Below are positions 5,183 through 26,579 of a DNA stretch of 34,047 bases, in pieces (position 1 is the first letter of the stretch; each line of letters begins with the position of its first letter). A model generated the notes under the pieces. The model had not been told where the DNA came from. It worked only from the letters and a program-made list of their open reading frames with translations, and ran no database searches. The stretch lies in NCBI GenBank assembly GCA_945889235.1, contig CAMDBK010000004.1, forward strand, positions 1 to 34,047, written 5' to 3'. Origin of the DNA: Chitinophaga pinensis (GTDB lineage: Bacteria; Bacteroidota; Bacteroidia; SXHM01). A program made the translations under genes and the position numbers.

Positions 5183-5779
5183 ATGCTTGAACTGCGATTT
5201 CAAAACAAGTTAATTGAAGCCGGTGTGGATGAAGCCGGACGCGGATGCCTTGCTGGACCGGTGTTTGCCGCGGCTGTTATTCTTCCAAAAAAATTCAGAT
5301 CAGAATTGTTGAATGACTCCAAACAACTGAGTGAAAAGAAAAGAGAAGAGCTTCGCCCGATTATAGAAAAAGAAGCAGTGGCATGGGCAGTTGGCATTAC
5401 AACGCATGAAGAAATTGACAAAATAAATATTCTCAACGCTTCTTATCTCGCCATGCACCGGGCGATTGAACAATTAAAAAAAACGCCACAATTGTTATTG
5501 ATTGATGGCAACCGTTTTAAAAAATACAAAGACCTTCCATTCAAGTGTATTGTTAAAGGTGACGGAAAATATATGTCCATTGCTGCCGCTTCCATTCTTG
5601 CAAAAACCCACCGTGATGAATATATGATGAAAATGGACGAGGAGTTTCCGCATTATAACTGGAGAAAAAATAAAGGGTATGGAACGCTGAAACATCGCAT
5701 AGCAATTGAGCAATATGGGGAATCAATTATTCACAGAAAGAGTTTTAAGGTGGTGGTGGTGCAGCCGACATTGTTTTAA
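5183..5779 (+). CDS. rnhB: Ribonuclease HII
   Basis: 198 aa; EAGVDEAGRGCLAGPVFAAAVILP, LLIDGNRF, KGDGKYMSIAAASILAKTHRDEYM. Confidence 0.95.
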   Translation: MLELRFQNKLIEAGVDEAGRGCLAGPVFAAAVILPKKFRSELLNDSKQLSEKKREELRPIIEKEAVAWAVGITTHEEIDKINILNASYLAMHRAIEQLKKTPQLLLIDGNRFKKYKDLPFKCIVKGDGKYMSIAAASILAKTHRDEYMMKMDEEFPHYNWRKNKGYGTLKHRIAIEQYGESIIHRKSFKVVVVQPTLF

Positions 5780-5792
5780 AAGCCTCCCCCTT

Positions 5793-5811
5793 CCCTCTCC
5801 AAAGGAGAGGG
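5793..5811. repeat. Hairpin ccctctcc-aaa-ggagaggg, part of a longer cctccccc... element, between rnhB and pdhB
   Basis: Arms 5793-5800 and 5804-5811 are perfectly complementary; related sequence lies inside the coding region at 26508-26546. Confidence 0.8.
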
Positions 5812-5854
5812 TTAAAACTTATTCCTATTTTTGAACATTCAAAAAAATCAAGAC

Positions 5855-22934: not shown

Positions 22935-23887
22935 ATGAGAACACTTCTAATCTTATTCTCAGTTATTTTTTGCTTTAGTGCTAACGCACAAGACCCAACA
23001 TTTACACAATACTTTAGTAATCCAATTTATTTGAATCCTGCATTTGCCGGTTATGAAGGATGTTCCAGAATATCCACAGCATATCGGAATCAATGGCCAA
23101 AACTTTCAGGTAATTATCAAACAGGAAGTTTTTCGTATGACCAATATCTAAAGCAAGTTGCCGGTGGTGTTGCAATCAGGTACTTAGCCGATTTCGCAGG
23201 TGATGGAACTATACAAACGCATACTCTGTCTTTATCCTACTCTCCTTCATTCAGATTATTTAATAAAAAACTACTAATCAGTCCTGCTGTTGAAGCAGGG
23301 TGGTTAGGGAAAACTATTGATTGGAGCAAACTCACTTTTGGCGACCAGATAGATCCGAGGTATGGATATATTTATCCTAATGCAAATCCTTCAGAAATAA
23401 AAAACGGGTTGATGTTTTTGATTTTACTGCGGGATTACTTATTTCTCATGGCAACTTTGTTTATGGTGCAGCCTTTCATCATTTGACACAACCCAATGAA
23501 GGATTTGCGGGCACATCTAAACTTCCTTTAAAGATTACTGCTCATATTTCTTATGTTGCACAGTTGAATGATAACTTTAAAATATCTCCCTCTTTTCTTT
23601 ATCAGCAGCAACAGGATTTCCAACAATTAGTTCCAACACTTTCGTTTTATGTTTATGGGATTAAAGCAGGTGTTGGTTCTCGATTTAATTTTTTTAATGC
23701 TGATGCTGTTATCTTTCTACTTGGCTATAAAGGGAAATGGTTTTCGGCAGGATATAGTTATGACATAACCGTTTCAAATCTTGGAAATAGTAGAACAGGT
23801 GGAAGCCATGAACTCAACTTCATTGCACGGTTTAATTGCAAGAATAAGTCAGAGAAAAGAAAGGGAGTTGAGCAGGTGAATTTTTAG
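22935..23887 (+). pseudogene. PorP/SprF-family T9SS outer membrane protein, interrupted by an apparent 1-nt deletion (ORFs 22935-23486 and 23483-23887)
   Basis: N-part QDPTFTQYFSNPIYLNPAFAGYEGCSRISTAYRNQWPKLSGNYQTGSFSYDQYL. The shifted frame continues VDVFDFTAGLLISHGNFVYGAAFHHLTQPNEGFAGTSKLPLKITAHISYVAQL. Confidence 0.85.
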
Positions 23888-23939: not shown

Positions 23940-26579
23940 TTAAAGCTTACCGCCTAAGACAAAGGACTTCTTGTATTTTTTTTGGTCGCCTGAGGTGTTG
24001 AAGAGTTCAATGTAGGCGACATAAATACCGATGCGGGCTTTTTCGTTGCTGGCATTAATTCCATCCCATGAGACGGTGCCGCTGGTGCCGAGTAACTCGT
24101 TGGTGAGAAGATTCTTTATTGTTCTTCCGCGTGAATCGAAGATGGTGATGCTGCCGATAAATCCGGGAGTATCAAAGGTGTAATTGAAGTTAAGTACATC
24201 GTTGTAGCCATCGTTATCGGGTGAGAAGATGGCGGGTTCAACGGTGATGGGATTGTCTGCAACCTGAGGAATATCGAACTGTGAGTTTTGATAAGCAGGT
24301 GTTGCAAAGCCCACTGTTTCTGCGGCTGAATGCCAGTTAGTGCGGTCGGTAGAGGAGCGGTCAAATGCAATGCGCTCCAACGAAACGCCTTTAAAACTAT
24401 TGAGCAAAGGGATGTGCATTGCTTCATCGTAAATGAGCATATCTATGATGTTGCCAAGTGTATCGTTGAGCACAACCGATCCTGCATCAATGTTGAAGGA
24501 AGGCATGGAAACAACTTTAAGAAAACCGTTGGGGTTTGGTGTACTGTATTGTGATTTTACGGCATCGGGGGAAGTGGTGAGCACTAAATATTCACCGGGG
24601 AAAATAAGGTAGCCGAGCGGTGCAATTATTTTTTGATTGACGGGCGGAACACCAACCGTATCAAAGTTGGCGATGCGTAATGATTTGAGGTCAATTACTT
24701 TTTCGGAGCGGTTGTAAACCTCAACAAAGTCAACACTGTTATCCGTTGGATAAAAAAGAATTTCGTTGACGATGATGTCATTTGAATCAGGAAATTCGGG
24801 GATGGCAAAGCGGATGTTGATGCTGTCGGTGATGGTGTTTCCGGCACAGTCCTGCGTGTTGATAACAGTTAAGGTATAAATAACATTGTGTTGTAAAGGT
24901 TGTGCCAGTGCAAGTGTTACGGTGTTCATGGCGGGCCATGCAGGAGAGGCAGATAGCGGTGTTCCAATTGCGTTATCGATTGAATAATTGTTCAGTGTTA
25001 TGGAAGAAAGGCTGTCGAGTTTTTCGTTGAAGAAAACAATGATGGTTACGCTGTCGGAAACGGTTACGCGCTCTGCAACGGGAGCTTCGGTGTCGGGATT
25101 GGGAGCGTTTACAGAGTTTGTTCTTCCGGGAGTACCGCCTGCAATGTAGGTGCTGGCTTTCCAGTTGGCGGCATCACCGCAGGTATTGTCGGGGTCAATC
25201 TGTTCGAGCGACCAGCCGCCTTCTTCCTTGTCGGGATCAGCGTACCAGTCGATTGTGTATTCAAGTGTGTGTATGATGTTACCTGTGCTATCCTGCAATA
25301 ATAATGTTTGTCCGTCATTGGTGAGTGCGGTGGTAGAAAGCCCTTCGACCTGCACTACATTTCCGTAGCCCTGCATGTAAATAAAGGCATCATCGGTAGT
25401 GAGCACCATAAAACTATCGGGAAGGATGACGGCATCGGGGAGAATTTTTGTTGTGGTACCGTAGGTGAATTTCCAGTCTTTTACATTGATGGGAACGTTG
25501 GTGCGGTTATACAATTCGGTGTATTCAAATTCGGGAATACCAACGTAAGGAGAAGGGTCGGCCATTACTTCGTTGAAGACCACATCGTAGCGCTGGGGGA
25601 AATAATAAATGAACTGATGCTGTGAGGCAAGCATAGTATTTCCGGCAGCATCCTGAACGTTTGAAATGCTGAGTGTGTAAAGTGTTCCGAGATTAAATGT
25701 TGTTGCAAAGGTGAGGTGAACGATGTTGGCATTTGTTAAATCACGCGTGGCGGTTTGGGGATTTCCGAGCGTATTATCTGCTGAATAATTGGTGAGTGTT
25801 TCGGCTGTTGACTGGCTAACGGTTTCGGAAAAAGTAACATCAACAGAATTTGGTGAGGTGATGGAAGCGGCTGTTACTGTTGGCAGAATGTTATCGACAA
25901 AGGTGGAACCGGTAACACTGAAATCATCGAAGATAAAGTTGGCGCTGTTGGTAGTTGTGTATTTGCAGGAGACACCAAAGAAGGAGGTTGTGAGAAATGT
26001 AACATCGTTCACACTTCCTTCGAGTACGAAGTTGTTTCCGCTGGTGCTGTCGCTGTAAAAGTTCCATGTTCCATCGGGGAAGCGTTCTACTTTTATTCGA
26101 CCTTCAGCGGGGTTAATACCGAAAGTGTTTACTGTTCCTGCAAATAATTCGGTGCCGGTGGTTGCACTTTGTTTGAAGAATTTGAGGCGGTCTGTAGAAC
26201 CATTTTCACCAAAGCGCAGGTAGTAGCCATTGAGTGAGCCGCGCAGGTTTTCCTGGTCGGAGACTAAATATATTTTAAGGTTGTTGCTGTTGCTGGGGTC
26301 GAAATTCATGCTGAAATAAAACTCCCACTGGATGGTATCACTGAAGACAACGCTGTTGGCGGTGGCAAGGTAAGCGGTGTCACTCAGAGCGGGTGCATTG
26401 AGGTGGAGCTGGAAACTTCCGTTGACTTCGAACTTGGTGGTTTCGCCTGTCCAGGTGGGGTTGGCTGTGAAGTCGGCATCGGTGAAGTTGTCGGAGAATT
26501 GGGCAAGGGCTTCGCCCCCGCCCTCTTTCCAAAGGAGTGGGGTGAGGAAGATCAGAAGTATGAGGATACTTTTATTCAT
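23940..26579 (-). CDS. Lamin-tail-domain, Ig-like secreted protein with gliding-motility / CHU_C-like T9SS C-terminus (ORF track start 26636; ATG at 26579 preferred)
   Basis: Two LTD-like segments (FNEVMADPSPYVGIPEFEYTELYNRT, IVNEILFYPTDNSVDFVEVYNRS), two SbsA-like Ig segments (SVDVTFSETVSQSTAETLTNYSADN; VTIIVFFNEKLDSLSSITLNNYSIDN), C-term IFSPDNDGYNDVLNFNY. The longer start lies in the terminator stem. Confidence 0.85.
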   Translation of the reverse strand: MNKSILILLIFLTPLLWKEGGGEALAQFSDNFTDADFTANPTWTGETTKFEVNGSFQLHLNAPALSDTAYLATANSVVFSDTIQWEFYFSMNFDPSNSNNLKIYLVSDQENLRGSLNGYYLRFGENGSTDRLKFFKQSATTGTELFAGTVNTFGINPAEGRIKVERFPDGTWNFYSDSTSGNNFVLEGSVNDVTFLTTSFFGVSCKYTTTNSANFIFDDFSVTGSTFVDNILPTVTAASITSPNSVDVTFSETVSQSTAETLTNYSADNTLGNPQTATRDLTNANIVHLTFATTFNLGTLYTLSISNVQDAAGNTMLASQHQFIYYFPQRYDVVFNEVMADPSPYVGIPEFEYTELYNRTNVPINVKDWKFTYGTTTKILPDAVILPDSFMVLTTDDAFIYMQGYGNVVQVEGLSTTALTNDGQTLLLQDSTGNIIHTLEYTIDWYADPDKEEGGWSLEQIDPDNTCGDAANWKASTYIAGGTPGRTNSVNAPNPDTEAPVAERVTVSDSVTIIVFFNEKLDSLSSITLNNYSIDNAIGTPLSASPAWPAMNTVTLALAQPLQHNVIYTLTVINTQDCAGNTITDSINIRFAIPEFPDSNDIIVNEILFYPTDNSVDFVEVYNRSEKVIDLKSLRIANFDTVGVPPVNQKIIAPLGYLIFPGEYLVLTTSPDAVKSQYSTPNPNGFLKVVSMPSFNIDAGSVVLNDTLGNIIDMLIYDEAMHIPLLNSFKGVSLERIAFDRSSTDRTNWHSAAETVGFATPAYQNSQFDIPQVADNPITVEPAIFSPDNDGYNDVLNFNYTFDTPGFIGSITIFDSRGRTIKNLLTNELLGTSGTVSWDGINASNEKARIGIYVAYIELFNTSGDQKKYKKSFVLGGKL
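26508..26546. repeat. Intergenic-type palindromic repeat embedded in the signal-peptide region of 23940-26579
   Basis: ggcttcgcccccgccctctttccaaaggagtggggtgag resembles the 5781-5814 intergenic element (cctcccccttccctctccaaaggagaggg); encodes LTPLLWKEGGGEA. Confidence 0.7.

Follow-up and report, generated by a model that had tools for sequence, protein, structure and literature searches.

We have analyzed a stretch of 34,047 nucleotides (the window) from a genome recorded as Chitinophaga pinensis (GTDB lineage Bacteria; Bacteroidota; Bacteroidia; SXHM01), namely positions 1 to 34,047 of contig CAMDBK010000004.1 in assembly GCA_945889235.1. The genome, referred to here as G000, amounts to 2.98 Mb in 340 contigs and is 79% complete. 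The window codes on its minus strand for a secreted lamin-tail protein, and a first-pass annotation had pointed out that the DNA of its signal peptide (26,508–26,546) resembles a palindromic element located between rnhB and pdhB. The features involved are the following:

23,940–26,579, minus strand: gene of a secreted protein of 879 aa, in which Pfam recognizes two lamin-tail domains, Big_5 and, at the C-terminus, a CHU_C type IX secretion signal.
26,496–26,579, minus strand: its leader of 28 codons, MNKSILILLIFLTPLLWKEGGGEALAQF, of the same length in six genomes, ending in an ALA/QF-type signal peptidase site where cleavage is predicted.
26,505–26,548, plus strand (orientation of tag and hairpin): decayed copy of the repeat, 11.6 bits with the covariance model, core with three mismatches; the same site scores 51.7 bits in G006 and 34.3 bits in G001.
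5,778–5,817, plus strand: intact intergenic copy, 52.9 bits, hairpin of -8.1 kcal/mol (z -2.7), 2 nt past the rnhB stop (TAA, 5,777–5,779).
5,183–5,779, plus strand: rnhB, adjacent to the intact copy on the upstream side; its orthologues, with or without the element, share the last residue.

The open reading frame (ORF) starting on the minus strand at the ATG 26,577–26,579 reads MNKSILILLIFLTPLLWKEGGGEALAQFS, as annotated, and the minus strand of the decayed copy encodes (L)TPLLWKEGGGEA inside the signal peptide. Removal of 13 leader residues, LTPLLWKEGGGEA, leaves 17 residues to AQF. The leader contains an uncharged core of 14 residues that ends in the element-derived TPLLW and is followed by the c-region. 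The resemblance between both places was also found to hold, since the 17 nt core CCTCTCCAAAGGAGAGG, exact at 5,794–5,810, reappears at 26,524–26,540 with three mismatches, and shuffles of the window are expected to give 0.07 matches at three mismatches or fewer. The hairpin is lost in the lamin copy (-4.5 kcal/mol, z +0.65 against shuffles); that of intact copies has a z of about -2.7. When the DNA variant of the window copy itself, CCTTTGGAAAGAGGGCNGGGGNGARGC, was searched in the genome it matched only itself, therefore the window copy is a decayed one and not a subfamily.

The repeat is dispersed over the whole genome. Allowing up to two mismatches, the core CCTCTCCAAAGGAGAGG was found at 56 places of G000, and the reversed pattern used as control at none. 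A covariance model, with matches counted at E≤1 in G000 and six congeners, gave 74 matches in G000, 57–91 in five of the congeners and 17 in G004, a genome where the exact core is absent and the orthologous sites are empty or decayed. The further genomic copies that the first-pass annotation had anticipated are hence present. Alignment of the genomic copies provided the consensus AAGCCTCACCCC-N-GCCCTCTCCAAAGGAGAGGG, a unit of about 32–40 bp made of a 5' tag, AAGCCTCACCCC, and a GC-rich hairpin of 8–9 bp with an AAA/GAA/GAG loop, often with AGCAGAG directly 3' of it. In a longer form the stem has one extra pair, and some of the aligned copies carry stem variants that are compensated, CCCTTCTCC..GGAGAAGGG. 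The exact core CCTCTCCNARGGAGAGG was detected in 72 of 395 members of the class, belonging to 34 of 197 genera, with up to 70 copies, while all the reversed controls together gave a single match. Tag and hairpin are found in other families as well; those of G117 often form inverted pairs at a distance of about 42 nt. Inverted pairs at short spacing, similar to bacterial interspersed mosaic elements, were seen at L022, L012, L002 and L117 of G000 and at loci of G117. We are thus dealing with a dispersed palindromic family, whose insertion is probably non-autonomous. A search of the open literature (subscription journals not covered) for the core sequence and the element-encoded peptides in Bacteroidota retrieved no description of it.

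We detected orthologues of the lamin-tail protein in five congeners out of six (81–88% identity) and in other families (up to 49%). All six genomes of the genus that have the gene carry the element at the orthologous leader site, and in all of them the leader has 28 codons to AQF, small residues in positions -3 and -1 relative to the Q and an uncharged core of 14 residues, in any phase, five of them element-derived. In G006 the leader-site DNA is still a near-perfect element (51.7 bits, E 3e-12) that keeps the hairpin (-10.5 kcal/mol, z -2.8), and that of G001 (34.3 bits) is a good one, both full length including the tag. In other families the leaders of the orthologues are ordinary and devoid of the segment. 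The near-consensus site of a congener, the segment-free distant orthologues and the in-frame copies described below support the proposal, made in the first-pass annotation, that the repeat had been captured into the signal-peptide region, and the conservation of the frame indicates that the segment is probably translated. The capture is old, however, and shared by the six genomes rather than particular to this one.

The leaders of G000, G002, G004 and G006 read TPLLW[KR]......, those of G001 and G003 are in another phase (SL[PL]FGE.WGG.A) with the total length unchanged, and on the gene tree, (G002,(G000,(G004,G003,(G006,G001)))), this takes at least two phase changes, the inner forks having only 93% support. 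Over the four genomes in the same frame, a tiny sample of six codons, the proportions of nonsynonymous (pN) and synonymous (pS) changes were 0.07 and 0.42 for TPLLWK, and 0.33 and 0.60 for the adjoining EGGGEA. Because the changes in TPLLWK are nearly all synonymous, the piece appears to be now a part of the working signal. The first-pass annotation had taken amino-acid selection on the segment as an argument against a repeat. Such selection is indeed apparent in part, in TPLLW[KR], but it means that the captured piece became a working part of the leader, not that the piece is no repeat. The loss of the hairpin here, and its persistence in the G006 and rnhB copies, also fits a captured piece that is now held for its amino acids.

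Similar situations are found in other genes. The repeat is located in frame within at least a dozen conserved enzymes of G000; nine hosts were identified by NCBIfam as UppP, LeuRS (with two inverted copies), AroC, MiaB, FolP, LpxB, MnmA, an M20 amidohydrolase and a PanE-like reductase. Many more copies occur within open frames, flanked on either side by coding signal, and 24 of 58 copy reports in G000 (a few copies being reported twice) overlap coding sequence. This census was based on inspection of individual loci together with a codon score, which was derived from the genes of the window and is invalid for other families; beyond the genus, in-gene capture rests on one case, in G052. Seven genes have both filled and empty alleles among the congeners, with a net gain in the aligned DNA of 24 to 105 nt (mostly 24 to 51 nt for single insertions), in every case a multiple of three:

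UppP: +30 nt in G000, G001 and G005; empty in the four others.
LeuRS: +87 nt in G000, +105 nt in G003; empty in five.
M20: +27 nt.
AroC: +27 nt in G000; +24 nt in G003, in the opposite orientation and in the same gap.
Phytoene-desaturase-like: +42, +51 and +33 nt.
D-cysteine-desulfhydrase-like: +39 nt.
RfbD-like: +27 nt.

Given their opposite orientations, the AroC copies of G000 and G003 are independent events. A few of the original residues were often swapped out at the insertion, as in the change of FQSSNEEK to FSLSPTLSKGEGENPEEK, and the peptides derived from the element come from several frames and both orientations (SLTPALSKGEG, KPHPDPLQRRG, ASPLTPLRGRGE, LSFGEGRGEA, PSPLERAGVRL, LLWRGAGGEA). 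A second copy adjacent to a leader was seen at L149 and L188 (G001, G002), just past the hydrophobic stretch (ISALIVLLAVVLYSA/PFSLGEGQGMRL). At L119, L092 and L162 the element lies where a GldF-like permease meets a GldG-like part, both apparently belonging to a single fused frame; in G001 and G004 it is decayed.

We consider it very probable that the 39-mer represents an old and now decayed copy of the dispersed palindromic repeat that was captured into the lamin-tail leader and later kept as the working end of the h-region. The entry of a copy into the leader of this type-IX-secreted protein would date back to the common ancestor of the genus or earlier. The insertion could be tolerated because its net length preserved the frame and because the minus strand, which provides hydrophobic residues and then a short polar stretch ending in Ala, suits the end of an h-region, a c-region and an AXA site. 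Selection would then have retained TPLLW while the hairpin decayed, an exaptation of the repeat in this leader. In general, out-of-frame insertions would be removed by selection and in-frame ones tolerated in loops and leaders. Several points weigh against this interpretation. No congener has an empty lamin site, so that insertion is deduced from outgroups at 42–49% identity. The other phase of two of the six genomes at equal length requires that the element was replaced, inserted a second time or shifted by compensating indels. The pN and pS values come from just six codons in four sequences, and the window copy taken alone is weak (E 0.13 over 66.6 kb).

This weakness, together with a folding no better than that of shuffles, is what would be expected if the signal peptide were an ordinary one, its c-region being unusual and its DNA repeat-like by accident. 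Such a chance resemblance is very improbable, as the orthologous copies of G006 and G001 correspond to the repeat from end to end, including the tag, and the same repeat is found in frame in many other genes; in fact the G006 copy already refutes it, unless that copy is itself an assembly error. Errors of assembly or binning could be suspected, since the genomes are fragmented and the two identifiable congener records, G002 and G004, are metagenome-assembled genomes (the genus is uncultured, judging by its database records). An origin of the pattern in such artefacts is even less credible, because the same insertions are located at orthologous sites of independently assembled genomes and open frames are kept at both sides.

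The position of the non-coding copies bears on one of the two remaining alternatives. In G000, 23 of 34 of them start at -1 to 5 nt from an upstream stop codon on the same strand, a placement for which the comparable intergenic background is 1.3%. The stop codons are native, because orthologues without the element terminate at the identical residue, and at L025 a TAA-ATG junction that is empty in the orthologue holds 39 nt. This placement favors the possibility that a regulatory role of its DNA or RNA maintains the element at all its sites, e.g., a translational or 3'-end control past stops like that of repetitive extragenic palindromes (REPs), the in-gene copies being by-products; REPs of Escherichia coli within 15 nt of a stop have been reported to down-regulate translation (PMC12306157). 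However, the presence of the element at a given stop varies between congeners, G004 lives with few copies and the lamin copy has no hairpin. At shared sites the mean similarity of the elements exceeded that of the flanks (92 vs. 78%), but similarity to the consensus was itself the criterion for finding the copies and some pairs were badly aligned, and we have set this difference aside as an ascertainment bias. A regulatory role is hence possible but unlikely as a general explanation. Mobilisation of the repeat as a REP by a REP-associated tyrosine transposase (RAYT, TnpA-REP) of the same genome looks more doubtful still. The tag and hairpin anatomy and the inverted pairs in G117 and LeuRS are suggestive of it, and a RAYT-like gene was found in G000, G001, G003 and G006 and no intact one in the few-copy G004. 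Against it, the RAYT genes that we examined had no copy within about 1.2–1.5 kb, the tag differs from both GTAG and CGTC, and in a within-family comparison of 80 genomes the high-copy and near-complete G314, G230, G334, G354 and G315 gave no RAYT match while many zero-copy genomes had one. We have therefore not retained RAYT mobilisation, which the flanks of the RAYT genes and the 80 genomes leave unsupported. At L083 (1085–1968, G000:C9) a RAYT-like gene adjoins the inverted remnant of a second one.

A further and rather improbable scenario is that a non-RAYT mechanism, possibly tied to translation termination, targets the palindrome specifically to stop codons, and that the palindrome recurs at fixed sites such as AroC and the lamin leader, seeding new protein segments and parts of signal peptides in free-living Bacteroidota. 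We searched the filled and empty pairs for target-site duplications and found direct repeats, TAA or AGCC-like, at some sites but inconsistently. Other, unrelated dispersed repeat-like sequences were observed just past stops in some congeners, at L323, L325, L311, L317, L321 and L327 (TGTCATGCTGAACTTGTTTCAGCATCT; TTTCTCGCAAAGGCGC; CACACGGATGACACGGATT; AGTCCGTAGTCCGTAGTC; TGTCACACTGAGCTTGTCGAAG), suggesting that the position after the stop is a general hot spot.

There are precedents for several of these features. The Rickettsia palindromic elements (RPEs) have been described as in-frame insertions in conserved genes, at least one of the enzymes so modified remaining active, and have equivalents in Wolbachia (Ogata et al., 2000, 2002; reviewed in PMC2229807 and PMC10969869); a 2024 review considered that a similar process may exist elsewhere (PMC10969869). 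Like RPEs, the repeat described here is dispersed between genes and in frame in unrelated conserved proteins that tolerate the insertion. But RPEs are about 100–150 bp long and encode one conserved peptide, whereas this repeat has about 32–40 bp, is read in several frames and both orientations and belongs to Bacteroidia, the likeness being one of description. The GTAG/CGTC REPs are tagged hairpins of 20–40 bp, often in inverted pairs, mostly downstream of genes and sometimes inside ORFs, and GTAG termini often provide the stop codon of neighbouring ORFs (PMC3733652). Our repeat is similarly a short tagged stem-loop with many copies and inverted pairs, but the tag is AAGCCTCACCC instead of a GTAG or CGTC tetranucleotide, the stop codons beside it are native, and RAYT genes are neither flanked by it nor tracked by its copy number. 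REPs in general lie near gene ends and seldom in coding sequence; here the majority of the non-coding copies abut a stop and the coding overlap is the one given above. As bacterial miniature inverted-repeat transposable elements, for which in-frame gene fusions are known (PMC10969869), the repeat is short, non-autonomous and dispersed, but terminal inverted repeats were not seen at its outer ends, nor was a clear target-site duplication, and it is far shorter. In short, its behaviour is that of an RPE and its look that of a REP, yet it departs from the former in the length and the single peptide and from the latter in the tag and the RAYT.

Elsewhere in the window (22,935–23,887), the gene of a PorP/SprF-like membrane protein is apparently frameshifted into two ORFs (22,935–23,486 and 23,483–23,887).

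Invasion of genes by in-frame palindromes is best known from Rickettsia and Wolbachia, where its tolerance is often attributed to an intracellular life and to genome decay. We have found evidence of a similar process in a different phylum, in genomes of 2–5 Mb and affecting proteins such as LeuRS, UppP, AroC, MiaB, FolP and LpxB. The filled and empty alleles of sister species make the fitness and structural cost of the inserts directly testable, and the tight placement at native stops represents an unexplained targeting pattern. The lamin-tail leader would be the next step, a repeat turned into the working end of a signal peptide.
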